Assembly (NCBI RefSeq): GCF_000466425.1
Contig: NZ_KE992177.1
Span: 27,174-62,586, forward strand
Source: Capnocytophaga sp. oral taxon 863 str. F0517
Lineage (GTDB): Bacteria > Bacteroidota > Bacteroidia > Flavobacteriales > Flavobacteriaceae
Direction: 5' to 3'
Length of the DNA: 35,413 bases
The number at the start of each line of letters is the position of its first letter. The stretch's first letter is position 1. The position numbers and the translations under genes are program-made. Under the pieces are notes generated by a model. That model worked only from the letters and a program-made list of their open reading frames with translations. It did not search any database and was not told where the DNA came from. This document shows positions 2,914-34,989 of the stretch, one piece after another.

Positions 2914-3002
2914 CAAGCTTTTCTATGAGAAAAGTTGTCTTCTTAGATTGGGAGAATGGTTCCTTTCTAATAGGACAGAAAAATCTATTTAATAATATAA
3001 AG

Positions 3003-6000: not shown

Positions 6001-6149
6001 GCCACTTGAGCTTAAAGCTACAAGCTACCAACTTGGCTTTGCTCTATGCGGATAAAAAGCTTAATGGAGATGATCCTGACTTCTTAGCCAACGGATATGC
6101 TCAAAGAGCACCCAAGCAGCTGATATTTACTTTGCGTGTAGGACTTTAA
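3003..6149 (+). CDS. SusC/RagA-family TonB-dependent importer, copy 1
   Basis: The protein has 1048 residues from the ATG at 3003. I chose this start because it gives a signal peptide (MNTVKVRFLLMLLLLMGVWHTSFAQ) and is the exact counterpart of the start in copy 2; an earlier in-frame ATG at 2925 lies inside the leader hairpin. Residues 28-98 form a CarboxypepD_reg-like beta-sandwich typical of SusC, followed by the plug, with KDASATAIYGP at 178-188 and GVVVITTKSG just after, and then a 22-strand barrel domain. SusC proteins form the outer-membrane channel beneath a SusD lid and use TonB energy. The SusD gene follows after 14 bases. The lipoproteins downstream suggest a peptide or protein-derived substrate rather than glycan; that is inference. 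Confidence 0.95.
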   Translation: MNTVKVRFLLMLLLLMGVWHTSFAQEEMKISGLVKDSQSKPLAGVQVSVKDTSRSTYTDFDGKYSIEITKGKILVFALQGMKPQEIAPASPIVDVTLLREGEVATGKEEQKAPMNTNTRGQTSISKEAKPLWVLNGVILQDDISLKPEELVSDDAKMLIAAAIPGLSAESIESFKVLKDASATAIYGPRAIAGVVVITTKSGAAGSSSITYTNESTFRFIPTYGEFNIMNSQDHISLMKELYEGAYFLEGNTVASATSGLMAKMNQLYKVLDANGNPRVSNTPEGRLRYMRMAERRNTNWFKELFQTSVMQNHTLSFSSGSEKSTYYASLSILDDPGWTKGSKLSQYSGNLNATYNLSSKIGLNVITDLSYKDQTDPYRNLYYYAQDRSRTLDPKEYYVERYTPFNIFNEIDNSYIDKDIATVRLQGQLTWKISPKVEATAMGAIRYQSYKMVTDHTEYSNRAISYRYMPNSEIRNANTYLYKDPNDPFAQPIPTLPKGGIHTQTLSTSQGTTFRATLSYIDSFMDGLHALSLYGGFEMDNNKNTYDSSDNYGVNFGSGYYSAFSYIKFKKMQEEGDDYYTIAPTTNNYQDFYANVNYTFKDRYTFNGTLRYDASNQFGKSRYVRWMPTWNAGLSWDVSQESFFKYLPLSYLTFSGSFGVTAIAPSVSNSLSQIYTNQPWRNSNNRELGLNITNGANHDLTYEKNQELDLGVQFGILNSRLNFSVDWFNRHSYDLIGNIDTQGVGGAIAKQGNMAEMKSHGLELAIESTNIKTENFTWKTSFVYSRSTNEITKLLTSPNIQNMVGYNEDATTVGGFAKEGYPLKSLFSIPFRGLDERGFPTFTGPNGELNREGFNMQDSNVDFLKYSGTLIPTDRGSFTNTINYKGISFGVVFTYSYGNVVRLRRISDALTYNDYSSAPRELNRRWRIPGDEARTNIPKAYSMADVLHYSVPQLGVDLSQPYSSYDYSDVRIAKGDNIRLKEISLGYTFDNQFLKETHIRHLSLKLQATNLALLYADKKLNGDDPDFLANGYAQRAPKQLIFTLRVGL

Positions 6150-6163
6150 TAAAAAGATAGACA

Positions 6164-7795: not shown

Positions 7796-7811
7796 TAAAT
7801 AAAAAATACTT

Positions 7812-9005
7812 ATGAAAAAAATATTATATATGTTTTTGTCAGCAGCAGCCTTGGTAGGTTGTTCTCAGGATAACGATCTGGCTGCAGAAAGTTCTGTGGA
7901 AGATAAAGCAGAACAGAAAGAACAGTCACTCAATACTCAAAATGATTTGGATAAGTACTTAGAGCAGAAGATAGCCAAACCATTTAACATCAATATTCTT
8001 TATCGTTTTACCGATAATGAAAGATACGAAGGCTATTCCTTTGTGCCTACAGATTATCAAAAGGCAATTGAGTTTGCCAATGTATTTCATTACCTCTTTA
8101 TAGAGCCTTATGTAAAAATAAAAGGACAGAACTTTCTTAAGGAATATTCTTTTAGTAAGATTATTTTAGTAGGAGAATATGCCTATGAAGCAGGAGGTAC
8201 TTATGTTTTAGGATGGGCATCGGCAGGAAAGAAAATACACCTGTTGAATATTAACAACTTACAGTCTCATAATATCTACCAACTGACTTCAGGACCTTTC
8301 CAGACCCTATATCATGAAGTAGCGCATACTTGGCATCAGGCTAAGCTCTATCCTACCAGCTTTGATAGGATTACTGCTTCCGATTACAAATATGGAAACT
8401 GGACAAATCTTGTTCATGAAGAGGCTCTCAAATCAGGATTTATACAACCATATTGTGCCTATAATGCCGATGAAGACTTTGTAGAGACTATAGCACGTTA
8501 TATGGTGTATTACAATGCTAAACAAGATTGTGGCTGCGCTACTACCGACCAAAGTCGTTGGGGTAGGGCTTACCGCAATCAGGATTTGGATAGCAGTGTT
8601 ACTGATGCACAGCACTTAGCCGCTAATGTGACTACCGATGATACCGATGCCAATGTGGCTATCTATAGAGCGATCCCTGATGGTTTTGACAGAGAGCAAT
8701 ATACCGCTTGGAAAGCTAAGTTCTCTAATTATGGAGATGCAAGCGGAACATATTATTCTACCAAGGTATGGGAAGAAGAACTCAAAAAAGCAGACGAAAA
8801 AATCCGTCCTACCGAAACCTATACAGGTAAAGAAAAATTGGAACAAAAGATGGTTATCATCAAGAAATACCTACAGGACGAATGGCAGCTTGACTTGGAT
8901 GTACTCCGCAAAGAAGTACGCAGCCGCTATCCTTATGTAGTAGGAAAGGATTTTGAGGGCAATACTGTGCCTCGTAAGGATTTCTCAACATTAAATCTTA
9001 ATTAG
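7812..9005 (+). CDS. Substrate import-associated zinc metallohydrolase lipoprotein, copy 1
   Basis: This 397-residue lipoprotein (lipobox ALVG-C, Cys17) belongs to the family named for its constant link to SusC/SusD pairs (TIGR04549-like, related to the Mx1 zinc metallopeptidases). The zinc site is HEVAH at 168-172 within TLYHEVAHTWHQ; E225 in NADEDFVETIARY is the likely third ligand. A Cys pair follows in QDCGCAT. Compared with copy 2 it carries about 35 extra residues after that pair, around 247-282. The residues after the lipid cysteine (SQDND) are acidic, loosely like a surface-export signal. Only one base separates it from the DUF4302 gene. The family's substrate has not been established to my knowledge; a protease role in feeding the importer is the natural inference. 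Confidence 0.9.
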   Translation: MKKILYMFLSAAALVGCSQDNDLAAESSVEDKAEQKEQSLNTQNDLDKYLEQKIAKPFNINILYRFTDNERYEGYSFVPTDYQKAIEFANVFHYLFIEPYVKIKGQNFLKEYSFSKIILVGEYAYEAGGTYVLGWASAGKKIHLLNINNLQSHNIYQLTSGPFQTLYHEVAHTWHQAKLYPTSFDRITASDYKYGNWTNLVHEEALKSGFIQPYCAYNADEDFVETIARYMVYYNAKQDCGCATTDQSRWGRAYRNQDLDSSVTDAQHLAANVTTDDTDANVAIYRAIPDGFDREQYTAWKAKFSNYGDASGTYYSTKVWEEELKKADEKIRPTETYTGKEKLEQKMVIIKKYLQDEWQLDLDVLRKEVRSRYPYVVGKDFEGNTVPRKDFSTLNLN

Positions 9006-9006
9006 G

Positions 9007-10347
9007 ATGAAAAAATATATTACTTTATTACTCACCGCTTCTTTTATAACTTCTTGTAGTTATAAGGAAGATAACCCTTTTGGAGATGATCGACAAGCCT
9101 TGCAGCGTATACCTGAGCTGATGCAAGGATATAAAAAAGCTTGGGAGAATGACAGCTATTGGTTATTTACGGTTTTCCCAGGGGAAAATAAAAGCTTTCA
9201 AGGGCTTCCTGCAACTAACCAAGGCAGAGGAGGATATAACTTTGTCATCAAGCTCAAAGATGGAAAGGTAATCGCTTCTTCTGAAGTAGCTTCTGATAAC
9301 AACGAGGTAACTTCTTATTTTACCTACAATGCTAATGAAGCTCCAGGAGTGAGCTTTGATACCCATAACAAAATTTTGCATCACTTCTATGTATCCTCTT
9401 ATGATTATCCTCGCGGTAAAGGTGGAGATGTGGAATATCTTATAGAAAAAGAAGAAAATGGAACCTATATTTTCAAGGGAAAACTCTCTGGAAATACAAT
9501 GGTTCTTACCAGTCTGACAGGTGATAGGGCAACTTTTCTAAACAAAATACGTGAAAATAGATTTTTCTTATTTGGAAAAATATTAGCTCCGGTGCAGATT
9601 AATGGTAAAACAGTGAATATGTTATTCTCTTCGTTAGAGCGTCAAATTGTTTTTAGCTATGATGGGAATAATGTTCAACAAGCTTTTGCACTTACTGAAA
9701 AAGGGATAAAATTCTATGAACCCGCGGATGTTAATAGTGTCAAGATAACAGAATTGTATATCAATAATGCCAAGACTGCCTTGACTACTCCCGATGGAGC
9801 TATAACTATTAACTTTGTAAATCCTCCTATTATCTTTAATGGAACTGATGATATCAAATGGGCTACTTTTGATACAGGTTCAGCCTCTCAGGATTTGTTA
9901 GATCAGTACGCTACTTTGAATACAGCTGTAAAAGATTTGTATTATTGGTATGATTTGAATGTAGATAAAGATCTGCAAATTAGGCTTCTTCACAATGATG
10001 ATTCAGGGTATGTGGTAGGTTTCAAAAAATATTTGTCCTTTGATGAAAGGTGGTCAGGAGGTAATGATACTTTCTATGAAATCAATTTTGATGCAGTAGT
10101 AGGGCATCCTGACCAAATAGCCATAAGCCTTCGAGGAGAGCCAAAATCTCAATATTACAAGGTGGATCATCCAGATGAAGATCTATTACAAAATCGTTAT
10201 AGTTGGTTTGCTAGCCCTATGTACAATTTTTATTCGTATATAGCGAGCAAATCTCCCTATACAGTGGCAGATGATCCTAATAATGCTAACTATTACAAGC
10301 TCACCAGTGTAAAAGATAGCAACACATGGTTCTTACTTAGTAAATAA
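9007..10347 (+). CDS. DUF4302-family lipoprotein, copy 1
   Basis: This 446-residue lipoprotein (lipobox FITS-C, Cys17) has the DUF4302 hallmarks: an N-terminal GYKKAWENDSYWLFTVFPG, GGYNFVIKLKDGKV at about 78, and a C-terminal VVGHPDQIAISL motif near 365 with a final TSVKDSNTWFLLSK. After Cys the residues are SYKED, which fit the X-K-(D/E)2 lipoprotein export signal described in Capnocytophaga, so it is probably displayed on the cell surface. It is the last gene of operon 1, followed by a terminator at 10370-10394. DUF4302 proteins commonly travel with SusCD and the HExxH lipoprotein. The function is unknown; a surface binding or lid-accessory role is likely. Confidence 0.9.
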   Translation: MKKYITLLLTASFITSCSYKEDNPFGDDRQALQRIPELMQGYKKAWENDSYWLFTVFPGENKSFQGLPATNQGRGGYNFVIKLKDGKVIASSEVASDNNEVTSYFTYNANEAPGVSFDTHNKILHHFYVSSYDYPRGKGGDVEYLIEKEENGTYIFKGKLSGNTMVLTSLTGDRATFLNKIRENRFFLFGKILAPVQINGKTVNMLFSSLERQIVFSYDGNNVQQAFALTEKGIKFYEPADVNSVKITELYINNAKTALTTPDGAITINFVNPPIIFNGTDDIKWATFDTGSASQDLLDQYATLNTAVKDLYYWYDLNVDKDLQIRLLHNDDSGYVVGFKKYLSFDERWSGGNDTFYEINFDAVVGHPDQIAISLRGEPKSQYYKVDHPDEDLLQNRYSWFASPMYNFYSYIASKSPYTVADDPNNANYYKLTSVKDSNTWFLLSK

Positions 10348-12117: not shown

Positions 12118-15054
12118 ATGAATACAGTGAAAGTCAGATTTTTGCTCTCATTTTTGCTTCTCTTAGCAGTGGGGCAGACCTCTTGGGCACAGGAGGAACT
12201 GAAAAAATCGGAGCAGGGCAAGGAGACCAAAGCCAAGCCTAAACCTACTCAAAAAACGCCTATGAATACCAATACTCGTGGGCAAACATCTATCAACCAG
12301 GAAGCCAAGCCCCTATGGGTACTCAATGGAGTGATCCTTCAGGACGAAATTGACCTCAAACCCGAAGACCTCGTCTCCGAAGATGCCAAGTTGTTGATCG
12401 CTTCGGCTATTCCAGGCCTTACAGCCGAAAGTATCGAGAGCTTTAGAGTACTTAAGGATGCCTCTGCTACGGCTGTATATGGGCCTCGTGCCATCGCAGG
12501 GGTTGTGGAAGTGGTTACCAAAAAAGGGGCTGTGGGGGCAAGTAGTTTTACCTATACCAACGAATCTACTTTCCGTCTTATTCCTACCTATGACCAGTAC
12601 AATATCATGAACTCTCAGGAGCAAATGTCTGTTATTCAGGAACTGATGCAGGGAGGGCACTATGAGTTTCAAAATGTAGTAACCCAAAAGAACAAAGGGG
12701 TTGTAGGAAAAATGTACGAACTCTTCTATGAGCTTGATGGTCATGGCAACTCCCGCGTACTCAACACTGAGGCAGGACGTAGAGCTTACCTACAAGAAGC
12801 TGAAAGACGTAATACCAACTGGTTTAAGCAGCTCTTCCAAACTTCTGTGATGCAGAACCATACTCTTTCTTTTTCCTCCGGAAATGAAAGATCTACCTAT
12901 TACGCTTCCCTAAGCCTTCTCTCCGATCCGGGTTGGCAAAAAGGAAATAAGTTCTCTCAGTATGCGACCAACCTCAATGCTAATTATAACCTTTCTTCCA
13001 AGGTGCGTTTAGGCTTGATCACTGACCTCTCTTACCGCGACCAAACTGCTCCCATACAGGATGGTTATAAGTATGCCTTGAACCACTCTCGTACGCTAAG
13101 TGCTAAGGACTATTATACAACTAACTATGCTCCTTATAACATCTTCAATGAGATAGACAATGCTTATATAGATACTGATATAGCAACCCTTCGTATACAG
13201 GGGCAGCTCTCATGGAAGATTACCCCTAAGTTGGAGGCAGCCCTTATGGGGGCTATTCGCTACCAAAGCAATACTCAAAAGACAGAGTATAAGGAAAATT
13301 CCAATTCGGTGCTCTCCTATCGTGCTATGCCCAATACGACCGTAAGGGATAAGAATACCAACCTATACAAAGACCCTAACGATCCTTTTGCACTTCCTAT
13401 AGTAGCCCTACCCAAAGGGGGAATTCGTGAGAAAAGAGACAAGACCTCACTGGCCAATAACCTTCGAGCAACTCTTAGCTATAAGGATACTTTTGCCGAA
13501 GGCCTACACAATATCGCTCTATTCGGGGGCTTCGAGATGGACAACGCTAAGAATACCAATGATATGAACCGAAACTATGGTTTGCTTTATAATGCAGGGA
13601 ACTATGCTTCTTTCTCTTACTTGATGTTCAAGAAGCTACAAGAGGAGTTCCGTAACTACTATACCATAGCCGATACAGAGAATAACAACCAAGCTTTCTT
13701 TGCCAATGCTTCTTATACCTTCAATGGACGCTATACCGCCAATGGTACTTTGCGTTATGATGCTTCCAACGCCTTTGGCCCCTCTCGCTACCTCCGCTGG
13801 ATGCCTACTTGGAACGCAGGAGTAAAGTGGGATGTTACTCAAGAGAAATTCTTTACTTTTCTCAAGCCTCTTTCTCGCCTAAGTCTCAAGGCTTCCTTTG
13901 GGGTAACGGCTGTAGCTCCTTCAGTGAGCAACTCTCTAGAACAGCTCTATATCAACAACCCTTGGCGTAATTCTGCTCAGCGTGAGTTAGGATTGGAAAT
14001 TCAGAATATCGCCAACCATGACCTTACCTATGAGAAAAACCAAGAGTTGAATATAGGAGCAGATATGGGCTTCCTTGACGATCGCATCAACCTTTCTGTA
14101 GAATGGTTCCACCGCCATAGCTATGACCTGATAGGAGATATTGTTACTCAAGGTACAGGGGGCTTCACTACCAAAAAAGGGAATATGGCTCAAATGCATA
14201 TCCGCGGGCTTGAAATAGGCTTAGAGACAACCAATCTCAAAACGGCTGACTTCTCCTGGAAGACTTCCTTTATCTATTCTCGGGCTAAGAATGAGATTAC
14301 AGAGCTACTTACCACTCCTACCATTCGTGATATGATTGGCTATTCAACCAGTGCTACTTCACAAGGGGGATTCGCTCGTGCAGGCTATCCACTTAAGTCT
14401 ATCTTCTCAGTTCCTTTCAATGGGCTGAACGATAGGGGACTACCTACTTTCCTTGACGAACGCAACCAATCCACTATCGGTGGCATCCGCTTCGATAGCC
14501 GTAATGTAGATTTTCTAAAATATGCTGGTACCCTCATCCCTACCGATAAAGGGAGCTTTAGTAATACCTTCCACTACAAGGGAATCTCCTTGGGGGTAGT
14601 GCTTACTTACTCCTATGGAAATGTGGTGCGTCTTAGAAAGCTAAGCAATATCTATACCGACTATGGAAATCTGCCTCGTGAGCTCAACAACCGTTGGCAA
14701 TTCGCTGGTGATCAGGCCAAAACCAATATTCCTGTAGTCTATACCACTTATACGCAGCAAGTCTATGGCTACAATGAGGTTATTCAGGCTTACAATACCT
14801 ATGACTATTCCGATATCCGTATTGCCAAAGGGGATAATATTCGTCTGAAAGAGATTTCTTTAGGCTATACCTTTGATAAGGATTTCTTGCGTGAGACTCG
14901 TATTCGTCAGCTTAGTGTCAAGCTGCAAGCCACTAACTTAGCTTTACTCTATGCCGATAAGCGCCTCAATGGAGATGACCCTGATTATTTAGCGAATGGA
15001 TATACTCCTATCTCTCCTAAACGATTGATATTTACTTTACGTGTAGGACTTTAA
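12118..15054 (+). CDS. SusC/RagA-family TonB-dependent importer, copy 2, lacking the N-terminal domain
   Basis: The protein has 978 residues, with the same signal peptide opening as copy 1 (MNTVKVRFLL) and cleavage after TSWA. Instead of the CarboxypepD_reg-like domain it has a short charged linker at 26-48 (lysine- and glutamate-rich) that joins directly to the plug sequence MNTNTRGQTSI shared with copy 1. From there the plug (KDASATAVYGP) and barrel align throughout with copy 1, including DPNDPFA, WMPTWNAG, LTYEKNQEL and the C-terminal FTLRVGL. About 66 residues are missing relative to copy 1. The importer core is intact, so it is probably functional. SusD follows after 12 bases. A different regulation or partner choice is possible but not shown. 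Confidence 0.95.
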   Translation: MNTVKVRFLLSFLLLLAVGQTSWAQEELKKSEQGKETKAKPKPTQKTPMNTNTRGQTSINQEAKPLWVLNGVILQDEIDLKPEDLVSEDAKLLIASAIPGLTAESIESFRVLKDASATAVYGPRAIAGVVEVVTKKGAVGASSFTYTNESTFRLIPTYDQYNIMNSQEQMSVIQELMQGGHYEFQNVVTQKNKGVVGKMYELFYELDGHGNSRVLNTEAGRRAYLQEAERRNTNWFKQLFQTSVMQNHTLSFSSGNERSTYYASLSLLSDPGWQKGNKFSQYATNLNANYNLSSKVRLGLITDLSYRDQTAPIQDGYKYALNHSRTLSAKDYYTTNYAPYNIFNEIDNAYIDTDIATLRIQGQLSWKITPKLEAALMGAIRYQSNTQKTEYKENSNSVLSYRAMPNTTVRDKNTNLYKDPNDPFALPIVALPKGGIREKRDKTSLANNLRATLSYKDTFAEGLHNIALFGGFEMDNAKNTNDMNRNYGLLYNAGNYASFSYLMFKKLQEEFRNYYTIADTENNNQAFFANASYTFNGRYTANGTLRYDASNAFGPSRYLRWMPTWNAGVKWDVTQEKFFTFLKPLSRLSLKASFGVTAVAPSVSNSLEQLYINNPWRNSAQRELGLEIQNIANHDLTYEKNQELNIGADMGFLDDRINLSVEWFHRHSYDLIGDIVTQGTGGFTTKKGNMAQMHIRGLEIGLETTNLKTADFSWKTSFIYSRAKNEITELLTTPTIRDMIGYSTSATSQGGFARAGYPLKSIFSVPFNGLNDRGLPTFLDERNQSTIGGIRFDSRNVDFLKYAGTLIPTDKGSFSNTFHYKGISLGVVLTYSYGNVVRLRKLSNIYTDYGNLPRELNNRWQFAGDQAKTNIPVVYTTYTQQVYGYNEVIQAYNTYDYSDIRIAKGDNIRLKEISLGYTFDKDFLRETRIRQLSVKLQATNLALLYADKRLNGDDPDYLANGYTPISPKRLIFTLRVGL

Positions 15055-15066
15055 CCCTTCAAAAAA

Positions 15067-16680
15067 ATGAAAAGAATATACTATATATTAGCTATTACTT
15101 CCCTCGCGCTGACCGCTTGTAACGATCAGCTGGATAAGATGCCGGACAATCGTCTGCTGATTGATTCGCCTGAAAAGGTTCAGCAGACCCTCACCAATGC
15201 CTATCCCCAGATAGCCACCACCCTTATTAACGAATTTTCTTCGGATAATATAGATGATATAGGGGCGGATAATATCTATTCTAACTTCCTCACTCGTGAG
15301 GCAGCCTATTGGCAAACCATCTTGGAATACAACTATCTGGACGGTTTGCAGAATATTTGGGACTTTCACTACAAGGCGATTAGCCATGCCAATGCAGCCT
15401 TAGAGGCTATTGAGACAACCTTAAAAGGAGATCCTGCTCTCAATCCTGCCAAAGGGGAAGCCTTAGTAGCGCGTGCCTATGCTCATTTCTGCTTGGCCAA
15501 CCTTTTCTGCCAAGCCTACAACCCTACCACCAGTGCTACCGACTTGGGGATTCCTTATATTACCGAGCCAGAAGCACAACTTGACCCCAAACGTGACCGT
15601 GGTACGGTAGCCCAACTATATCAGCAAATTGACCGAGACCTCCAAGTAGGCCTTCCGCTCATTGAGGATAGTTATTACCAAATGCCTAAGTATCACTTCA
15701 ATAAGAAAGCAGCTTATGCCTTCGCTGCTCGCTTCTACCTCTATTACCAACAATGGCAAAAAGCAGTAGAGGCTGCCAATGTGGTGCTTACTACCAATGC
15801 AGCTACCACTAAAACACTGGTACGCCAATGGTCGGACTTCCGCGATGCCCAAAAGACTGGTATCCGTTCTATAATTGCTTATGGACAAGCCTATGCCCGT
15901 GAGAGTGAGGTGGCCAACCTTATGTTACAGCCTGTCTATTCAGAACTCTCTACTACTTATTTTGTAGAAACCAACAATCGCTTCTCCCATGCTTATAGAG
16001 TGGCAGAACAGGAAACCTTCTCCACTACCAATCTTTGGGATCCTCATGCGGTGTCCAAAAATAATGGTTATGACTTCTACTGGTTTATGCCTTTTACCCA
16101 GCGTGCCGATCTAAGGGATATCGTCTTACTACCTAAGTTCTCTACCTTCAAAGATGGTTCCTATACCCGTACTATCTTAGTGCCTTTTACCACCGATGAG
16201 ACACTCTTGGTACGCGCCGAGGCTAAAATTATGCTTGGAGAGCTTGATAGTGCAGTGGAAGATCTTAATATATGGACTTCTAAGTATCTGAAAGGAAGTC
16301 AGGATGATAATCCTAATCCTAATGGTAATACTTTTACCAAGGATCAGATAATCAACTTCTACAATAGCTTGGCTTATAGCCAAAGTACCCCGAGTGGAGC
16401 CACTCAAAAGAAGCAGTTACATCCTTCTATTACACTCACATCCGAACAGGAGTCGCTGATTCACTATGTATTACAGTGTCGCCGTATTCTTACTATGCAT
16501 GAGGGACTTCGTTGGCAGGATATTAAGCGCTATGGAATAGAGGTAGCGCGCTACCAACATACCAAAGAGGAGAGAGACATCTCTACCATACAAGGGGTCT
16601 TAGCTCCTGTTGATGCCCGCCGTGCTATACAGCTTCCAGGTACCGCTATAGGTGCCGGTATGCAACCCAACCCAAGATAA
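15067..16680 (+). CDS. SusD/RagB-family substrate-binding lipoprotein, copy 2
   Basis: This 537-residue paralogue of the SusD at 6164 is colinear with it: lipobox LALTA-C (Cys18), CNDQLDKMPDNRL, KGEALVARAYAHFCLANLF, YHFNKKAAYAFAARFYLYYQQW, PFTTDETLLVRAEAKI, HYVLQCRRILTMHEGLRWQDIKRYG and the final GMQPNPR. The similarity is high in the core and low between about 270 and 340 and around 395-430, where lid loops that contact substrate usually lie; this suggests a different ligand. It lies 15 bases before the metallohydrolase gene. Partner SusC is copy 2. Confidence 0.94.
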   Translation: MKRIYYILAITSLALTACNDQLDKMPDNRLLIDSPEKVQQTLTNAYPQIATTLINEFSSDNIDDIGADNIYSNFLTREAAYWQTILEYNYLDGLQNIWDFHYKAISHANAALEAIETTLKGDPALNPAKGEALVARAYAHFCLANLFCQAYNPTTSATDLGIPYITEPEAQLDPKRDRGTVAQLYQQIDRDLQVGLPLIEDSYYQMPKYHFNKKAAYAFAARFYLYYQQWQKAVEAANVVLTTNAATTKTLVRQWSDFRDAQKTGIRSIIAYGQAYARESEVANLMLQPVYSELSTTYFVETNNRFSHAYRVAEQETFSTTNLWDPHAVSKNNGYDFYWFMPFTQRADLRDIVLLPKFSTFKDGSYTRTILVPFTTDETLLVRAEAKIMLGELDSAVEDLNIWTSKYLKGSQDDNPNPNGNTFTKDQIINFYNSLAYSQSTPSGATQKKQLHPSITLTSEQESLIHYVLQCRRILTMHEGLRWQDIKRYGIEVARYQHTKEERDISTIQGVLAPVDARRAIQLPGTAIGAGMQPNPR

Positions 16681-16695
16681 AAAATACTCAAGCTT

Positions 16696-17796
16696 ATGAA
16701 AAAGATTATATATATACTTTTGGCAGCAGCCATGATAAGCTGCTCCGTGGATAATGCTCTTACTGCCGATAGTGTTGTCCCTAAGGACAATGAGCAAGAT
16801 ACCTCTCAGCAAAAGGTGCTCAATCCACCTAACCCTTTGGATACTTACATACAAGATCACTTTACCACTCCGTACAATATTCGCATTCTCTACCGCTTTG
16901 TGGAGAAAGAAACTACTCGTAGCTGGGTGCTCACCCCTACCAAGTATGATAAGGCGGTACAGTTCGCCTCCGTGTTCAACTATCTATTTATAGAACCTTA
17001 CATAGAGGTGACCTCCAAGGAGTTCATGAAGGAACATTCGTTCAATACCCTGATTCTTATAGGAGAGAATGCCTATCACCCTACTCGTGTCCCTTTGCGA
17101 GGCTTGGCAGACAATGGAGTGAAGATCCATATGATGAATATCAATAACATACGTCCTAACAGTATCTTCTACCTCAATGACAATGCCTTACATACACTCT
17201 ACCACGAGACGGCTCATACCTGGCACCAATCGGTGGATTACCCTACCGATTACAAGCGTATCTCGGGTACGGACTACAAGAGTAATAGTTGGTTGAATAG
17301 CTGGACAGGTACCGATTACCTCAAGGCGGGCTTTATCAGCGCTTACGGAAGTAAGGATTCTGATGAGGACTTTGTGGAGATGATCTCTCGCTATATCACC
17401 TACTTCAATGCCACACAAGATTGTGGTTGTGCTACCGAGGATACCACTTTGGATACCAATGGAGATGGTTTCGACGATGCCCTCTATACAGCTTGGAAGC
17501 GTAGTTTTACTAACTATAACAATGGTGCCTCAGTGGCTTCCTATGACTCGGCTCGTGTATGGGAAGAACAATTGGAATTGGGCAATGCCAAAATCCGTTC
17601 TACAGAGCAATATACCGGTAAGGAGAAGCTCCAGCAGAAGATGGATATGATCCGTCGTTACCTCACCACAACTTGGAATATCGACTTAGATGTCTTGAGA
17701 AATAAGATCCGCGAACGCTATCCTTATGTGGCAGGACGTACCTTGAGTGGGCAGGTAGTCCCTCAGAAAAATTTTTCTGATCTAACTAATAATTAA
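16696..17796 (+). CDS. Substrate import-associated zinc metallohydrolase lipoprotein, copy 2
   Basis: The 366-residue paralogue of the gene at 7812 has lipobox AMIS-C (Cys16), zinc motif HETAH at 170-174 in TLYHETAHTWHQ, and E228 in DSDEDFVEMISRY as the likely third ligand. The QDCGCAT cysteine pair is kept, but the 35-residue insertion after it in copy 1 is absent; here the stretch DTNGDGFDDA looks like a small calcium-binding-type loop. The C-terminal half (YTGKEKLQQKMDMIRRYL, RERYPYVAGR) is strongly conserved between copies. Five bases separate it from the DUF4302 gene. It is predicted to be an outer-membrane-anchored hydrolase acting beside the importer. Confidence 0.9.
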   Translation: MKKIIYILLAAAMISCSVDNALTADSVVPKDNEQDTSQQKVLNPPNPLDTYIQDHFTTPYNIRILYRFVEKETTRSWVLTPTKYDKAVQFASVFNYLFIEPYIEVTSKEFMKEHSFNTLILIGENAYHPTRVPLRGLADNGVKIHMMNINNIRPNSIFYLNDNALHTLYHETAHTWHQSVDYPTDYKRISGTDYKSNSWLNSWTGTDYLKAGFISAYGSKDSDEDFVEMISRYITYFNATQDCGCATEDTTLDTNGDGFDDALYTAWKRSFTNYNNGASVASYDSARVWEEQLELGNAKIRSTEQYTGKEKLQQKMDMIRRYLTTTWNIDLDVLRNKIRERYPYVAGRTLSGQVVPQKNFSDLTNN

Positions 17797-17801
17797 AAAT
17801 A

Positions 17802-19103
17802 ATGAAAAGATATATTACTCTATTTTTAGCCTTTTCACTCCTTTCGGCTTGTGAATATAAGGAAGAAGCTGTATTCGAGAAGGAAGCCAGTAACCGTACC
17901 TCTACTACACTTGAGACTTACAAGGGCATTATAGAAGGCTATGATGGCTATTGGTTGCTCTCCTATTACCCAGGGGTAAGCCGTAGTTTCGGGGGCTTCC
18001 CTGTGGCACCACGTAGTATAGGCGGCTACTCCTTTGTCTTGAAACTCAAAGATGGCAAGGTAAAAGCCTCTTCCGAGGTAAGACCTACCAATGCCGAGGA
18101 AGAATCCTATTATACATACTCCAATACCGAAGGGCCTACCTTGAGCTTTGATACCTTCAATAGTGTATTAGACCATTTCCGTTTTGTCTCTCCAGTATTT
18201 ACCAATGCCAGAGGAGGGGATATTGAGTTTATCTTCCTTAAAGAAGAAAACGGAGTACTTACCCTAAGGGGGCGTACTTCCAATAACCTAATGACACTCA
18301 CCAAACTTACAGGCGATAGGGAAGCCTTCCTTACCAAGCTCCGTGAGAATACTCAAGTGCTCAAGGGTAAAGGGCTCTCTCCTATCACCATAGAAGGTAC
18401 TGAGGTGAAGATCACTCACTTCCCAAGTTATCGTCAATTGGTATTTAGCTACGAAGGACAGACCGTGCAGCGCGCTTTTACGCTTACTGAAAGAGGAATT
18501 AAGCTTTATGAACCTGCTGAAATTAAAGGAGTTACCTTTGATGAACTCTATTTCAATGAGGATAAAACTGCTTTGGTAACGCCCGATGGAGCTATTTCCT
18601 CCGCTTTAGTGCCTTGTCCTATTACCTTCTCCACGACTTCCTCTCGTTGGATATCAGTAGCAGAATACTACACCTCCCAAAGTTATATAGATATTCATAG
18701 GAACTTGGACAATCAGGTACGCCGTGGCAAGTGGAGAAACTACTCTCTCAATACCTATTTTTCCTTCAGAGAACTGATCGAAGGAAATGATGGGGGAACC
18801 TCCACAGCTATAACCTTGAGCCTAAGGAATACCAATCCTAATAACGGTCGTTACAAGGACTATACTTCGGATTATGAGGCCGATTTTGTAGGAGTAGCTG
18901 GCCATCCAGATCAGATAGAAATCTTCCTCAAGGATGCGAACCTTGCTAGCGGATTCTCGCAGTACTTCCCCTACCTTACTCCTATCGTTGATGAGGTAGT
19001 CAATAACAGTCCTTATCAAATAGATGCCACTACCTATGATTACTACTACAATCTGCGTAGTATTAAGAATGGGGAAAATAGCTGGTTCCTATTGAGTAAG
19101 TAA
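17802..19103 (+). CDS. DUF4302-family lipoprotein, copy 2
   Basis: This 433-residue lipoprotein (lipobox LLSA-C, Cys17) has EYKEE after the cysteine, again a good K-(D/E)2 surface-export signal. Its DUF4302 landmarks are ETYKGIIEGYDGYWLLSYYPG, IGGYSFVLKLKDGKV, GVTFDELYFNEDKTALVTPDG, VGVAGHPDQIEIFL and the ending NGENSWFLLSK. It is the last gene of operon 2. The middle third differs most from copy 1, which fits a ligand-facing region if the family binds substrate. No catalytic motif is evident. The export signal and its place in the operon suggest a cell-surface accessory of the importer; the role is otherwise unknown. Confidence 0.9.
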   Translation: MKRYITLFLAFSLLSACEYKEEAVFEKEASNRTSTTLETYKGIIEGYDGYWLLSYYPGVSRSFGGFPVAPRSIGGYSFVLKLKDGKVKASSEVRPTNAEEESYYTYSNTEGPTLSFDTFNSVLDHFRFVSPVFTNARGGDIEFIFLKEENGVLTLRGRTSNNLMTLTKLTGDREAFLTKLRENTQVLKGKGLSPITIEGTEVKITHFPSYRQLVFSYEGQTVQRAFTLTERGIKLYEPAEIKGVTFDELYFNEDKTALVTPDGAISSALVPCPITFSTTSSRWISVAEYYTSQSYIDIHRNLDNQVRRGKWRNYSLNTYFSFRELIEGNDGGTSTAITLSLRNTNPNNGRYKDYTSDYEADFVGVAGHPDQIEIFLKDANLASGFSQYFPYLTPIVDEVVNNSPYQIDATTYDYYYNLRSIKNGENSWFLLSK

Positions 19104-29393: not shown

Positions 29394-31094
29394 TTATTTC
29401 TTTACCTCTGCTAAGCTAACGGTAAAAATCCCAAAATCATCAATTAGCATGCTTTCTTTCTTTACCCCTTGGAGAGCGAAAAGTCCGTCCAATTCTCGCT
29501 GGCTACGGCGACGCATCACCCAGTCTTTCTCTTGGTGACTCTTCAGTACAAAGGCAATGGTTTTGAGCTGAGGATGCCATGGTTGCCCTGTATAGACGAT
29601 ATAACCATTATCCAAGATAGAAACTACCCCTTTGATGGCCTCAGCGGCTAAGGCATTGTCTCCAAAAAGCTCAAAAATACCTGAGATAATAGTGATATTG
29701 GGCGTGTAATTCAGTTTGCGGTAGGTGTCTGCCTCAAAACAGCTGTAGTTGGTAAAGCGTATATGCTGATAGCCACGTTCTTTGATGATCTGTTCGCCCT
29801 TTTGTATATTGGTAGGCAGGAATTCATTGATGACGATCTCTACTTCAGGATGGCGCTCCTTGATGTCAAAGAGGTAGTTACCCACCCCACCGGCGATGTC
29901 CAATATTTTCACCTTCTTCCCTTGTGCTTGTAGGGCTTGTATGGCCTTTTCTACTTGTTGTAATAGGTGACCCTTTCGGATACGTACCCCACGCCAGCCT
30001 ATGGCATTGAGATAACTCTTGTCCATCCAGCGACCTACTCCCCATTTGCCTTGGGGTGTATTCTTATATACGTAATCCATAGAAGCACCAGAGTCAAATC
30101 CGTGTGTGAGTCCAACGGTCATCCCTTCGCTGAGGTGTCCTAATTTGCCCAATGCCCATTTCTGAAATCGGTAGTTTCGTCTTTCTCCGCTGGGGATAAG
30201 TTCGTATTGCATGGTTTCAAACTCCTTTTGGGTAAAGAGGTCTGGGGCAAGCGTAGGGGCAGGCAGGGGTGTTGAGAAAGCCTTTTGAATAAAGCGTTGT
30301 AGGATTTTGTATACTTCCTCTCTGCCTTGCTCAAAAAGGATGCCATGGTGAAAGCCTTCCAAGGTGATAAATTCTTTTGTTTCAGAAGAAAGATTTACAT
30401 AGAATTGTTTCTGTTGGCGGTTAATCACCACAAAGTCTTTTTCTGCTGAAAGCAGTAGGGTAGGGGTAGTGATAGCAGCGGCATCTTCCACCAATCGCTT
30501 GCCTGCGTTGGCTAGGTCAATAAGGAGTTTGCCATTGATAGAGCGGGTGATAAAGCGGTCAGTATCGTAAGCACGCTGTTGCTCAGGGTCACGAGTGAGC
30601 ATCTTGGATTTCACATAGCTCTTTACAATGAGCTTAGGATTGACCTTTAGTATCAGTTCAATGGCTTGCTTGGCCAAAGGGACAATAAGGTTTATTTCAA
30701 AGGCAGGCGCCAAAAGGGCCATACCTGCAATGCGTGGGGCAAAGTCATGTACCCAAGCCGATACGATGACCCCTCCGATACTGTTGGCTACCACAAAGAT
30801 GTCTTCCTCGCGTACCCCATAGCGCTGCCCAAGGAACTTGGCAAAGGTGTCTAAATCCCGTACCGAGTCCATGAAAGCAGGCGATACAGCTGCCTTGGTG
30901 TGTCCATGTCCGCGCATGTCAAAAGCAAAGATATTGTAGGAGGTAAACAGTGGGTGCGTGGCAAACTCCTGCAAGCGCTCGCCATACTCATGTCCTCTGT
31001 GGATTACAATAAGGGTCTTTTGCCCTGCTTTGTAATTCCATTCGTAGAAGAATAACTCTTCCCCTTCGTGACTTTTGAAAAAACCTGTGTTCAT
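29394..31094 (-). CDS. Bifunctional alpha/beta hydrolase and SAM-dependent methyltransferase
   Basis: This 566-residue fusion has an N-terminal alpha/beta hydrolase (about 1-270, monoacylglycerol lipase-like Hydrolase_4) with nucleophile Ser105 in VVANSIGG, acid Asp220 in LLLSAEKDF and His249 or His250 in EGFHHGILF; the oxyanion stretch is IHRGHEYGER. The C-terminal part (about 290-566) is a class I methyltransferase with SAM motif ILDIAGGVGNYLFDI at 397-411 and a downstream INEFLPTNI acidic loop. The same fusion is known beside lipid genes in other bacteria. A hydrolase that trims an acyl chain and a methyltransferase that modifies the product would fit one pathway. The gene has its own promoter box at 31115-31122. 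Confidence 0.92.
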   Translation of the reverse strand: MNTGFFKSHEGEELFFYEWNYKAGQKTLIVIHRGHEYGERLQEFATHPLFTSYNIFAFDMRGHGHTKAAVSPAFMDSVRDLDTFAKFLGQRYGVREEDIFVVANSIGGVIVSAWVHDFAPRIAGMALLAPAFEINLIVPLAKQAIELILKVNPKLIVKSYVKSKMLTRDPEQQRAYDTDRFITRSINGKLLIDLANAGKRLVEDAAAITTPTLLLSAEKDFVVINRQQKQFYVNLSSETKEFITLEGFHHGILFEQGREEVYKILQRFIQKAFSTPLPAPTLAPDLFTQKEFETMQYELIPSGERRNYRFQKWALGKLGHLSEGMTVGLTHGFDSGASMDYVYKNTPQGKWGVGRWMDKSYLNAIGWRGVRIRKGHLLQQVEKAIQALQAQGKKVKILDIAGGVGNYLFDIKERHPEVEIVINEFLPTNIQKGEQIIKERGYQHIRFTNYSCFEADTYRKLNYTPNITIISGIFELFGDNALAAEAIKGVVSILDNGYIVYTGQPWHPQLKTIAFVLKSHQEKDWVMRRRSQRELDGLFALQGVKKESMLIDDFGIFTVSLAEVKK

Positions 31095-31114
31095 GGCGTA
31101 ATAGATTAATGCGA

Positions 31115-31137
31115 CAAAAGTAGAAAATTATTTTCTA
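31115..31137 (-). promoter_or_regulatory. Internal promoter box with adjoining palindrome
   Basis: Read on the minus strand, TACTTTTG (31115-31122) matches TAnnTTTG, 20 bases before the hydrolase-methyltransferase ATG. TAGAAAAT-T-ATTTTCTA (31121-31137) is a perfect 8+8 palindrome overlapping the upstream edge of the box, a plausible operator. Confidence 0.5.
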
Positions 31138-31142
31138 ATGAC

Positions 31143-31907
31143 CTAATTTCTAGCGCAAGAATTAGCAGGCGTTTGCATCCATTTGGCTTTTCTGTACATA
31201 AGTAGCGATAACAAGGACTTGGGCAGCAACGAAAGTAGCTGCATAAGCCACTTCATTCGCTTGGGGAATAGGTGTAGGGGCTTCTTCTGAGCAATAGCAC
31301 GGCTGATTTCCGCTACGGCTTGTGCTTCACTTACCACAAAGGGTTTCTTAGACAGGTCGTTTTGGTTCAGATCGTGTAGTTTTCGGGTGGCTACATACCC
31401 TGGTGCAATGGTGGTTATACAGATACCCAAGGGGCGCAAGGCGCGCCTATAAGCATCTGCTATTTGCAGCACACTGCGCTTGGTCTTGGAGTATAGGCTC
31501 GATTCAGGATAATCCAAAATCCCTGATATAGAAGCCAGTAGAACGATCTGCCCACCGCTATCTCTCATGAGTTCTCTCCCTATCTCTACGGTATTGATAG
31601 CACCTATGATGTTGGTTTGTAACATTGCCACAGCCTCCTCATAGGTAATCTCTCCTGCTACATCTTCGGCGTAGTGGCCTGCACAGTTGATGAGCAATGA
31701 GAGCGTATCTGTGCCTACAAATTGGCGTATGACACTATCTAACAGTTCCTTGTCTATAACATCGGCTTGAAACTTCTCAAAGCGTGACTCACTAGCGAGT
31801 CTCTTGAGATCTCTGCCACATACCCCAACTCGGTTGCCTTCTCGCTGATAGAAGTCCGCTAAGGCATAGCCGATCCCAGAGGTACCTCCTATGATAAATA
31901 CATTCAT
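31143..31907 (-). CDS. SDR-family oxidoreductase
   Basis: The 254-residue protein is a classical short-chain dehydrogenase: nucleotide motif GGTSGIG at 7-13, NCAG at 74-77, catalytic Ser126 in LLASISG, and Tyr139-x-x-x-Lys143 in LYSKTKRS. Arg32 in the CGRDLKRL loop after strand 2 suggests NADPH. The C-terminal 40 residues are hydrophobic and basic (KRMKWLMQLLSLLPKSLLSLLMYRKAKW), like SDRs that sit on membranes and act on lipid or sphingoid ketones. The start overlaps the patatin gene's stop by four bases (ATGA). By context the substrate is probably a lipid intermediate, such as a 3-keto lipid. Confidence 0.92.
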   Translation of the reverse strand: MNVFIIGGTSGIGYALADFYQREGNRVGVCGRDLKRLASESRFEKFQADVIDKELLDSVIRQFVGTDTLSLLINCAGHYAEDVAGEITYEEAVAMLQTNIIGAINTVEIGRELMRDSGGQIVLLASISGILDYPESSLYSKTKRSVLQIADAYRRALRPLGICITTIAPGYVATRKLHDLNQNDLSKKPFVVSEAQAVAEISRAIAQKKPLHLFPKRMKWLMQLLSLLPKSLLSLLMYRKAKWMQTPANSCARN

Positions 31908-32944
31908 GGTCTAAAGGTGTTAAGTATAGTTTGGTAGCCATAGTCCCATTGTTGCTCTATCTGCTGGCGGTAAGTGGGGTAATCTTTTGGAAAGCGAATA
32001 CCTATGCTTAGTTGCTTCCAGTTGATATATTTTTCTGAGTAATAACCTTTTAGTGCCGTTGTTGCCCTACGTGTATCTATCCATTGGGCAGGATAAGAGG
32101 CCACAGAAGCTAACCGCTCATTGCCGCTAAAGCCAAGAACAGCACGCACCAAGGCCTCTTCGGTAGGGGAGTAGGCTTGTTTCTCTTCGGCAATAACGTT
32201 TGTTGAAAGAGCACTTGCCAGCTCCATAGGGACAAGGTCAATAGCCCCGCCTGCATAATAGGCACCTTTGTAAGCCACAGGTGCTACATAGAACATATCC
32301 GATATAGAAATTCGCGCAGCTGTGAGCATAGGCATTTCTGTCTCAATAAGTATGTCAGCCGTTATGGCCGAATGGGTATAGTTGGCTTCGGTATGCTTTA
32401 TAGCCGAGAGATTTATCCTCTGGGCGGTCATGGGGTCAGTCATGAGCACTTCTTGGTATAGCTTCCGCTCACCTCTGGGCTTGCCACACTCATGGGGGGC
32501 AAACAGCATCCTTGCTCCTATGACAATGGTAGGCAAAGTAGCTGAAAAAGACACCTGTGCCAAAGAGGGCAATAAGCAAGAAAGATCTTCTCGCATAGTC
32601 ACCAAATAGCGCTGATACACATCCTCTACCAAGGGAGCACGGCGCTTGTTATACCGCTTTTGCAAAGCTAAAATTCCCAAGCGGTGTAGCTTGCTATAAG
32701 GAGTAAGGGACAGGCTTTTGATAAACTCGTAAAATTCTTCCGATTGCAAATAGGCTTTTCGCTCCTTGTCCGTAGCAAAGGCATTGATTACCAAGGCGGC
32801 AAAGGCGCCCCCACATGAGGCGATGAGTAAGTCAGGGGCTTTGCCCAAGGCATGTAGTGCAGCATACATGCCGTTGTATAAGGCAAAGCGGGTACCTCCA
32901 CCTGAGAGGAGCAGACAGTTGTGGAAAGGTTTTATCGTATCCAT
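31904..32944 (-). CDS. Patatin-like protein with altered active-site motifs
   Basis: The product is 346 or 350 residues, depending on whether the ATG at 32944 or 32956 is used; I prefer 32944, which gives the shorter overlap with cdsA. The glycine-rich oxyanion motif GGGTRF is present at 19-24 (numbering from 32956). The nucleophile elbow reads LLIASCGGAF, so Ser47 is kept, but the usual first glycine of GxSxG is Ile. The partner motif DGG/DGA reads YYAGGAIDLVP, with Ala235 where the dyad Asp is expected; Asp240 lies five residues on. It may use another acid or have become a lipid-binding, acyl-transfer or regulatory subunit. It lies in the middle of the lipid operon, coupled at both ends. 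Confidence 0.85.
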   Translation of the reverse strand: MDTIKPFHNCLLLSGGGTRFALYNGMYAALHALGKAPDLLIASCGGAFAALVINAFATDKERKAYLQSEEFYEFIKSLSLTPYSKLHRLGILALQKRYNKRRAPLVEDVYQRYLVTMREDLSCLLPSLAQVSFSATLPTIVIGARMLFAPHECGKPRGERKLYQEVLMTDPMTAQRINLSAIKHTEANYTHSAITADILIETEMPMLTAARISISDMFYVAPVAYKGAYYAGGAIDLVPMELASALSTNVIAEEKQAYSPTEEALVRAVLGFSGNERLASVASYPAQWIDTRRATTALKGYYSEKYINWKQLSIGIRFPKDYPTYRQQIEQQWDYGYQTILNTFRP

Positions 32945-33708
32945 AAGTAAAACCAAATACAGTTGTACAATAGGCTGTCTATACGGTCTAAGAGACCTCC
33001 GTGTCCAGGAATAAGGCTACTTGTGTCCTTTACGCCTGCACGCCGCTTGAGGTAGGAAAAACTTACATCTCCCCAGAAACCGAAAAAACTAAGAGCCAAT
33101 CCCACTAAGGCCAAAGTAGGTAGTGCAGTAGGTAGCCCTAACAACCTACCTAAGCCCATACTCAAGAGCGGGGTAAGTAGTAGCCCTCCTGCAAAACCTT
33201 CTACGGTTTTATTCGGGCTCACCTTGGGCAGAATCTTTCGCTTACCGAAGCGCTTACCCGTGAGGTATTGGAAGATGTCATTGAGTTCTGTGGTAACTAC
33301 CAAAAAGAGGATCCACAGCACCCCTTGGGGTTCCATACGTAAGAAAGTCAGGTGCGGGTAGGCTACCAAGACAATCAGCAAGGAAAGGGGGAGGCCTAAG
33401 GGGACTTGCCTTAAGCAGAGACTTAGGATAAGGCTGACACCAACCAAGGCGCCAGCTCCTACCATATAAGTGGGATAAGTAGGACAGCTCACAAGGAGTA
33501 TGCCTTGTAATAGGGGAATGGCTATACGCCAATAGGTAGCATCGAAGGCAAAAAGACACCCCAGTTCTCTAAGGGCTTGAAAACTCACCCATAGGGAAAA
33601 GAGGTACATCGCGTAAGGGTGCGAAATAGCAGCAGCAAAGACACAGATAATCACCCCCCAACTCCTAATACGCAGTGGTACATCGGCATATTTGTTATCG
33701 TGTGGCAT
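32932..33708 (-). CDS. Phosphatidate cytidylyltransferase (CdsA-like)
   Basis: This 258-residue inner-membrane enzyme has seven or eight hydrophobic segments and the family signature at 213-245: GDVSFSYLKRRAGVKDTSSL then PGHGGLLDRIDS, including the KDxxxxxPGHGGxxDRxDS block with the metal-binding acids. An upstream SPNKTVEGFAGG at 164-175 is also typical. CdsA makes CDP-diacylglycerol from phosphatidate and CTP. The usual housekeeping copy would be found with other essential genes; this one lies next to a CDP-alcohol transferase that would use its product. Its ATG overlaps that transferase's end by 14 bases. It probably serves a dedicated pathway, unless it is the only copy in the genome. Confidence 0.93.
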   Translation of the reverse strand: MPHDNKYADVPLRIRSWGVIICVFAAAISHPYAMYLFSLWVSFQALRELGCLFAFDATYWRIAIPLLQGILLVSCPTYPTYMVGAGALVGVSLILSLCLRQVPLGLPLSLLIVLVAYPHLTFLRMEPQGVLWILFLVVTTELNDIFQYLTGKRFGKRKILPKVSPNKTVEGFAGGLLLTPLLSMGLGRLLGLPTALPTLALVGLALSFFGFWGDVSFSYLKRRAGVKDTSSLIPGHGGLLDRIDSLLYNCIWFYLWIR

Positions 33709-34300
33709 AGAGTCCCTTTTTAAGACGAATAAAAGTACTCAAGAGCAATAGGGCAATGACAATGGCGAAAATCACTTTGGAATAAGCCGCTATTCCTACC
33801 CCAAAGTAGGCCAGTAGCCCATAGATACCCACCAGTAGCGCACGATCGCTCTTGCCCATAGGTCCCTCGTAGCGCCTTTCCCCTCCTAATACCTTGCCCA
33901 TGACGCCAGCAAACTCATTGAGTACACTCAGTACGATAAAGGCCACCACTAAGTAAAGGCTTTCAGGGTGATACTTAAGCAAAGGGAAGAAAATAAATAC
34001 ATCGGAAACTGCATCGCCCATCTCATTGAGCACCTCTCCTAAGCGGGAGGTTTGCCCAAATTCACGCGCCATCATGCCGTCAAGGGCATTGAGAATCATG
34101 CGAATCAACAGCCCTATGGGTAGCGCCAAAAAGAAGAGTGGTACCTCAGAAGCCTCCCAAAAGAGCACACCGATTCCTAAGGAAAACACAATAGCCACTA
34201 TGGTAATCTCATTGGCGGTAATCCCTCTTTGGTGTAGCCATACCAATAGGGGGTGCAGTAGCTGCTGGAATTTAGGTTTTAGTTTATAAACGGAAATCAT
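33695..34300 (-). CDS. CDP-alcohol phosphatidyltransferase with two Asn substitutions in the signature
   Basis: The 201-residue membrane protein has about six hydrophobic helices and the start typical of the family (GITANEITIVAIVFSL). The active-site motif DxxDGxxARx8GxxxDxxxD is recognisable at 71-96, but reads NALDGMMAR and GEVLNEMGD: Asn71 replaces the first Asp and Asn92 the third; Asp74 and Asp96 remain. All four Asp coordinate metal or activate the alcohol in canonical enzymes. The rest of the motif, with A78-R79 and G88, is intact. The family joins an alcohol (glycerol phosphate, serine, inositol phosphate) to CDP-diacylglycerol. The headgroup is unknown, and the substitutions suggest unusual chemistry. 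It leads the five-gene set. Confidence 0.9.
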   Translation of the reverse strand: MISVYKLKPKFQQLLHPLLVWLHQRGITANEITIVAIVFSLGIGVLFWEASEVPLFFLALPIGLLIRMILNALDGMMAREFGQTSRLGEVLNEMGDAVSDVFIFFPLLKYHPESLYLVVAFIVLSVLNEFAGVMGKVLGGERRYEGPMGKSDRALLVGIYGLLAYFGVGIAAYSKVIFAIVIALLLLSTFIRLKKGLYATR

Positions 34301-34526: not shown

Positions 34527-34744
34527 TTTACTATTTTTTTAGAGATAATATTCATATCTTCTTTATTATGAAAATAATAAAAATAGATACTGTCTATATA
34601 AGTGTAATTGGGTTTGTATGAGGTAAATGTTATTTCTAATTGCCTTCTATTGGAAGAGAAAACATCTTTTACTTTAATAGCTTTATAATCAAACAATATG
34701 CCACTTTTGCCACTATAGAGAAACTTAATGATTCTACTTGTTGC
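34523..34744 (-). pseudogene. C-terminal fragment of an unknown gene
   Basis: The minus-strand frame from 34744 to the TGA at 34523-34525 has no ATG start of its own. It reads as protein: IIKFLYSGKSGILFDYKAI, KVKDVFSSNRRQLEITFTS and YIDSIYFYYFHNKEDMN. It overlaps in another frame with the end of the HipA-like piece, so the two were joined by a rearrangement near 34735-34760. The stop overlaps the next start, which shows the original gene was coupled to the 69-residue protein gene. No family was recognised. Confidence 0.5.
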
Positions 34745-34747
34745 CTA

Positions 34748-34989
34748 AAAAAAGCTAATTTTTCTACAGGATTCAATAGGTTCTGTGTCAGATTTTGTTT
34801 AGAAAACCATTCCAATATGAGTTTATTCCCGAAAGCATCTGGGAAGGTATCGGCCAATAGAGGGGGGAGATTCTTGAAAGTATCCAAACTCTCTCTTGGA
34901 TTAGAGAAGTATAATGTGTCATTCAGAGGCATTATCAGCGGAGATAGTTCTTCTCCTGTTTTTACATAATTTGCGACAGCAATATCCAT
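34748..34989 (-). pseudogene. HipA N-terminal-region fragment
   Basis: The minus strand encodes a segment typical of the start of HipA-type Ser/Thr kinase toxins: GEELSPLIMPL, then LPPLLADTFPDAFGNKLI and NPVEKLAFF, in the right order and spacing. The expected continuation (the GxRGMGAL-type segment) and the kinase domain are absent; after NPVEKLAFF the frame runs into unrelated sequence and ends at 34669. The usual hipB antitoxin is not beside it. It is a dead piece of a toxin gene, roughly one fifth of the normal length. Confidence 0.8.

Follow-up and report, generated by a model that had tools for sequence, protein, structure and literature searches.

The window analysed here, i.e., the whole stretch of 35,413 nucleotides from contig NZ_KE992177.1 of Capnocytophaga sp. 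oral taxon 863 str. F0517, carries five lipid-type genes on its minus strand. We call them A (cytidine diphosphate (CDP)-alcohol phosphatidyltransferase), B (CdsA-like), P (patatin-fold), S (short-chain dehydrogenase/reductase, SDR) and C (fusion of a hydrolase and a methyltransferase). Judged by homology, they form a cluster of the known orphan ynb kind, named after ynbABCD of Escherichia coli and widely conserved, in a different arrangement. With a probability of roughly 0.6, we read the ynb-type system as a dedicated glycerophospholipid-synthesis branch outside the housekeeping route, in which the patatin-like protein and the SDR replace an acyltransferase of the PlsC type. What we observe, and what this reading is built on, are the gene set and its homologies, the co-inheritance of its members, a single clade of B, a pattern of gene replacement, and altered active sites.

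Strong matches to C occur in six of 20 Capnocytophaga genomes but are absent from all 40 other relatives, eight of which give weak PF12147 matches (17.9-25.9 bits, four above the cut-off) in short frames of 245-258 amino acids (aa). All six C-positive genomes also have A, B, P and S. The five genes lie together in four of them; the other two, G003 and G017, have C on its own and A-B-P-S at a distant site on the chromosome, all five genes being kept. Among A, B, P and S, the search of the C-negative genomes of the genus covered A: the YnbA-type motif is present in none of the 13 with PF01066 loci, and a 14th, 88% complete, gave no PF01066 match. That unlinked genes are inherited together in this way provides the strongest evidence for a joint function of the five. 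A set that recurs across phyla and is kept together in the genus even if unlinked is far beyond chance.

Gene neighbourhoods of C across bacteria

For a wider comparison, loci were chosen by C alone, as the best 80 of at least 576 confirmed relatives. Two of them (L060 and L061) stem from the same genomes as the genus members G013 (C23) and G014 (C7), and some are located on short contigs (e.g., L091, L095, L120), where the absence of a gene means little. The first-pass annotation, made from the letters of the window, had held that related gene sets occur in other bacteria. The co-occurrence survey it called for agrees: profile searches of the C flanks detect A at 73 and B at 70 of the 80 loci, and furthermore D at 66, S at 36 and P at 32. 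Here, D denotes a YnbD-type protein with a PAP2 and a dual-specificity phosphatase part.

P (within 6 kb of C, 32 loci) and PlsC (within 7 kb, 38 loci) never occur together, and ten loci have neither. S lies beside P in all 32 P loci. Of the 29 Bacteroidota loci, 26 are ordered A-B-P-S-D-C, three of these with one gene split into two frames; the remaining ones are two Capnocytophaga loci without D, and L075 without a recognised B. Many Campylobacterota and enterobacterial loci follow the order A-B-acyltransferase-C-D, where the acyltransferase belongs to PF01553 in the three copies scanned, and pseudomonads show A-C-D with B further on. Outside the Bacteroidota, P occurs in Fusobacterium (L089), Undibacterium (L107) and Desulfobacterales (L132), and the same rule for P and PlsC holds. 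Since the B of L132 groups with those of Marinomonas, Psychromonas and a pseudomonad in our tree (see below), the sequences suggest that P and S were exchanged at this locus.

A sample of 296 genomes from the phylum yielded C and P in the window's own genome alone, and A in six genomes. Four of the five other A-positive, C-negative genomes were read, and all four reveal a minimal unit of A, B and PlsC side by side, without D, P or the C fusion. In three of them, a separate alpha/beta hydrolase with a weak match to the C profile (16.8-25.3 bits) lies a few kb off, and L148 encodes a general SDR at a distance of about 5 kb. From this trio lacking C, D and P we deduce that the core comprises acylation, CDP activation and transfer, with C, D and the pair of P and S as additions or replacements. 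Together with the co-inheritance in the genus, the minimal unit upholds the earlier proposal that the genes belong together around a core of CdsA-like enzyme and transferase.

Frames of D (67, including fragments) contain both motifs in 43 cases, PAP2 only in 23 and neither in one. In the window's genome no match to D was found, 17 of the 20 genus genomes having been searched. The sole strong match in the genus is that of the sister species G003 (C1:967930-968604; 264 bits), which adjoins the SDR gene, covers residues 1-217 of 438 (the PAP2 part) and contains two internal stops; four other genus genomes show weak matches of 18.9-40.5 bits. By these sequences, D is decaying in Capnocytophaga. 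Because G003 keeps a decayed remnant beside the SDR gene and the window's genome keeps none, the most likely ancestor of the window's cluster is A-B-P-S-D-C, from which D was then lost. We treat D as a common rather than a fixed member, as it is absent also from 14 of the 80 loci.

Further genes were seen near some of the loci. Eleven enterobacterial loci (L112, L115, L116, L119, L121, L124-L128, L134) encode after D a small membrane-like protein of about 127-133 aa, which forms one similarity group and possibly is a further member of the pathway; its frames differ in length in L121 and others, and the L112 copy has no Pfam match. ArsR-like, Aas-like and LplT-like genes (named by eye) follow D in the Campylobacterota loci L090, L094 and L096. 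A second gene of 324-332 aa follows C in L103, L104, L105, L106, L108 and L109, the L104 copy being a methyltransferase (PF00891 and others). A TssF-like gene lies within 7 kb of C in L112, L114, L115 and L127, and TssF and TssG directly downstream in Pantoea (L112); since these are only 4 of 80 loci, we take the link to type VI secretion as local.

Active sites and proposed pathway

On tree and genome evidence, B is not the housekeeping CdsA. The first-pass annotation had considered that its cdsA might be the sole copy, which is not the case: a second, housekeeping CdsA is encoded on contig C10 of the same genome, and one branch (support 100/99) of a 51-protein tree separates 36 cluster copies of B (including YnbB) from 15 housekeeping CdsA proteins. 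The cluster copies comprise 27 of the 70 B-bearing loci, the window, YnbB and seven more; 28 loci had been picked, and L084 was dropped with its B split into short frames.

The CDP-alcohol phosphatidyltransferase family shares the motif D1xxD2G1xxAR...G2xxxD3xxxD4, in which two metal ions are coordinated by four Asp and the last of these is presumed to act as the base (PMC6506517; this and the other papers cited are quoted from those parts of their text that were available to us). A instead reads N71-x2-D74-G-x2-A-R ... G88-x3-N92-x3-D96. Asn replaces Asp at D1 and D3 in 74/74 filled alignment rows and in 81 of 83 YnbA-type proteins, the two exceptions being a truncated frame (L117, whose A frame alone among the 80 loci lacks the N-D-N-D pattern) and a protein matched out of register. 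In a profile alignment, both Asn align with Asp of AF2299. E. coli PgsA and 19 PssA-type genus loci keep all four Asp; the latter belong to a comparison set of 31 other PF01066 loci, of which two are themselves YnbA-type and ten, being off the pattern spacing, were not counted. We therefore regard YnbA-type A, on its alignment, as a variant subfamily that retains the PF01066 fold and lacks the four-Asp motif.

P is altered in a similar way. Cys48 replaces the nucleophilic Ser in 32/32 filled rows and, in a profile alignment, falls on the Ser of PlpD's GTSMG motif. The Asp before GG is missing in 33/33 rows, with Ala, Met, Leu, Thr, Phe or Ile instead, and Asp220 is invariant (33/33 rows). An AlphaFold2 model of P from 27 sequences (mean pLDDT 91.7) predicts a strand (43-47) and a helix (50-59) flanking Cys48, as in a nucleophile elbow. 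P thus belongs to the patatin fold family (PF01734) and lacks the Ser-Asp dyad of GxSxG and DGG/A. With Ser exchanged for Cys, the DGG Asp gone, and P sitting where relatives have a PlsC-type acyltransferase, a role in synthesis appears likelier than patatin-type lipid remodelling. The latter, which the first-pass annotation had envisaged for P, is doubtful on the same grounds.

In S, G7, G11 and G13 are kept in 37/37 rows, and Y139 and K143 in 36/37; a PDB profile search gave no match at E 1e-15. The hydrolase half of C resembles monoglyceride lipase (PDB profile, E 1e-18) and keeps a Ser-Asp-His triad (Ser105 in 80/80 filled rows, Asp220 and His250 in 82/82). The methyltransferase half matches only general methyltransferases in the PDB (best E 0.00018), and Asp399 and Gly403 of its S-adenosylmethionine site are present in 82/82 rows. 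The half of C that was modelled reached a mean pLDDT of 92.1.

Along these lines, we propose the following pathway. P together with S would make or finish an acylated, phosphatidate-like backbone, a step for which many relatives would use the PlsC-type acyltransferase. B would activate this lipid with CTP to a CDP-lipid, and A, with its altered metal site, would transfer the CDP-lipid onto an alcohol or alcohol phosphate. D, in clusters that retain it, would take off a phosphate; since relatives keep this phosphatase, a phosphorylated acceptor is suggested. After loss of D, another phosphatase might take over, or the product might stay phosphorylated. C would then remove an acyl chain and methylate the product or an intermediate. 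Only tentatively do we go further and suggest that P is a lipid acyltransferase with a Cys nucleophile which replaces PlsC together with S (e.g., by acylation of dihydroxyacetone phosphate and subsequent reduction), and that the YnbB/YnbA pair with its Asn-containing metal site builds an undescribed phospholipid class shared by E. coli and many other bacteria. The comparative pattern likewise predicts a novel kind of enzyme, in which a patatin fold with a Cys nucleophile would serve synthesis.

Cluster layout in the window

The coordinates of the open reading frames agree with the earlier description of five genes on one strand, four of them overlapping, and the family names then given hold as well, all six Pfam domains scoring above their family cut-offs (Table 1; cut-offs in bits: PF01066 22, PF01148 24, PF01734 27.7, PF00106 26.6, PF12146 27, PF12147 21). 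The genes span positions 29394-34300. A, B, P and S are chained by overlaps of 14, 25 and 4 bp, and C is set apart from S by a gap of 48 bp. The start codon of P is TTG, with an in-frame ATG four codons downstream.

Table 1. Features of the ynb-type cluster, with positions in the window.
Feature	Positions	Strand	Properties
A: YnbA-type CDP-alcohol phosphatidyltransferase	33695..34300	-	201 aa; PF01066 35.6 bits; 43% identity to YnbA
B: YnbB-type CdsA paralogue (CDP-lipid synthase)	32932..33708	-	258 aa; PF01148 174.5 bits; 40% identity to YnbB
P: patatin-fold protein	31904..32956	-	350 aa; PF01734 34.1 bits; Cys48, no DGG Asp, invariant Asp220
S: short-chain dehydrogenase/reductase	31143..31907	-	254 aa; PF00106 97.5 bits; TGxxxGxG-like site and YxxxK
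C: YnbC-type fusion of hydrolase and class I methyltransferase	29394..31094	-	566 aa; PF12146 176.8 and PF12147 297.6 bits
TAnnTTTG box in the gap upstream of C	31115..31122	-	same box before C in 6/6 genus copies

The box in the gap corresponds to TAnnTTTG, which we take to be a Bacteroidota promoter element. As it precedes C in all six C-carrying genus genomes, including the two in which C stands alone, C probably has its own promoter. This box, the kinship with E. coli ynbABCD and the missing phosphatase are absent from the first-pass annotation.

The guanine-plus-cytosine content is 0.470 in the cluster and 0.398 in the rest of the window. It reaches 0.423 and 0.443 in two other "own" loci, and thus a recent transfer of the cluster is suggestive only. 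Plasmid origin was rejected after a near-match search of 72,556 plasmid records without a near match, and a defence system after the six scanned proteins gave no PADLOC match.

Upstream of the cluster, a short minus-strand frame (34669-34989) resembles a HipA N-terminus (PF13657, 18.1 bits at a cut-off of 22.5) and probably is a gene remnant. Two tandem sets on the plus strand (2925-10347 and 12118-19103) resemble, by eye, SusC, SusD, a lipoprotein with an HExxH motif and a further lipoprotein.

Rival products and kinship to known systems

Several points weigh against a dedicated synthesis branch. The mutual exclusion of P and PlsC does not represent 32 independent events, because 29 of the 32 P loci belong to one lineage, the Bacteroidota; ten of the 80 loci have neither gene, and the ynb operon of E. 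coli K-12 itself is without an acyltransferase. The Cys site of P without its Asp, and likewise the Asn-containing metal site of A, could mean weak or lost activity. Every chemical step, the step order and the product are deduced from the genes, and no lipid has been seen. Two further points, the effect of overproduced YnbB on the glycolipid MPIase and the best family models of A, belong to rival products and are taken up with them.

The alternative that survives best, although we consider it improbable, is remodelling instead of synthesis: P and C would cut acyl chains of an ordinary phospholipid, and A and B would re-form a common lipid. The monoglyceride-lipase-like half of C fits this idea, as do the Aas/LplT-like genes after D, Aas and LplT serving the recovery of lysophospholipids. 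However, those genes occur in only three of the 80 loci, P lacks the Ser and Asp of patatins, and the smallest unit, A-B-PlsC, is devoid of P and C and reads as synthesis.

Less credible is a backup route to MPIase, in which B makes GlcNAc-PP-diacylglycerol and the neighbours modify the product. Overproduction of YnbB is reported to have raised MPIase in E. coli, but in the same account the ynbB knockout did not notably change it (PMC6362211). Moreover, the GlcNAc-PP-diacylglycerol reaction does not require a CDP-alcohol transferase, which is B's constant partner.

Slightly weaker still is an inositol-lipid pathway, with A as phosphatidylinositol-phosphate synthase and D as the matching phosphatase, like BT_1523 and BT_1525. 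The best NCBIfam models of A are indeed those of archaetidylinositol-phosphate synthase (72.9 of 180 bits) and phosphatidylinositol-phosphate synthase (44.4 of 170 bits), both below the cut-off, and the A-B-PlsC genomes G112 and G200 have an inositol-phosphate synthase. This enzyme is, however, missing from 8 of 10 genomes, namely all six cluster-carrying genus genomes, G099 and G135, and E. coli, which carries ynbABCD, is not among the controls matching it. A also has Asn at two motif Asp. With a synthase in none of the six genus genomes, inositol phosphate is an unlikely acceptor in the genus.

Least probable of all is that A replaces PgsA for phosphatidylglycerol in the window's species: the window's genome encodes just two proteins of PF01066, one PssA-like and A, the latter with a weak pgsA match (26.7 of 109.1 bits), but the five other cluster-carrying genus genomes all have a third PF01066 protein besides A (family match only), and in E. 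coli PgsA and YnbA coexist. As a product, Gly-Ser-FAHFA-phospho-diacylglycerol, reported for Capnocytophaga and many Bacteroidota (PMC11052126), was set aside on distribution alone, since C occurs in one of the 296 genomes of the phylum sample.

We also compared the cluster with known systems. PlpD (5fqu), a patatin-like phospholipase, matches P in the profile over the glycine-rich loop and the region after the Asp, and the model of P would place an elbow-like strand and helix around residue 48; P differs by Cys for Ser, the absent DGG Asp and the new invariant Asp220. The inositol-lipid cluster BT_1522-BT_1526 of Bacteroides thetaiotaomicron likewise combines a CDP-alcohol transferase and a lipid phosphatase, whereas it has an inositol-phosphate synthase and the members named in the available text include no CdsA-like protein, patatin, SDR or methyltransferase (PMC9246714). 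PlsC-type A-B-C-D clusters (e.g., L090, L112) share the core and the C fusion, with a PF01553 acyltransferase in place of P and S.

Also among the closest known systems is ynbABCD (b1408-b1411) of E. coli K-12. Its homologues of A, B and C follow one another as they do in the window, C being 37% identical to YnbC. In the window these homologues stand contiguously, as expected of a ynb-type cluster. The two systems differ in that E. coli has the phosphatase YnbD and neither P nor S, whereas in the window P and S are present and D is missing. At least 80% of ynbABCD is present in 4242 of 5426 complete E. coli genomes; in three matches (H1-H3), an insertion element inside the match and a transferase annotated twice indicate that the operon is interrupted. 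In the available parts of the literature, YnbB, even overproduced, failed to complement a cdsA knockout (PMC6362211), YnbA is called uncharacterised after withdrawal of an earlier guess (PMC3781023), and YnbD has no ascribed function and did not rescue growth of strains without undecaprenyl pyrophosphate (C55-PP) or phosphatidylglycerol phosphate (PGP) phosphatases (PMC7413402). A possibly polar disruption of ynbC altered intron-protein localisation in a polyphosphate-linked screen (PMC2435150), and two further papers, as far as their text was available, mention ynbC and ynbA in gene lists only (PMC13313352, PMC13031359). In line with the first-pass annotation, which knew of no assigned product, we found none for the ynb operon or cluster in the parts of the open-licence literature available to us, preprints not being covered and a closed or newer paper being conceivable; within the same literature, we found no description of the core, the replaced acylation step or the two family-wide active-site changes. 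The comparative pattern sharpens what is asked of this orphan operon, namely which phospholipid arises from acylation, an additional CDP-lipid synthase and a transferase whose metal site is altered, and makes this question one that can be addressed in E. coli K-12.

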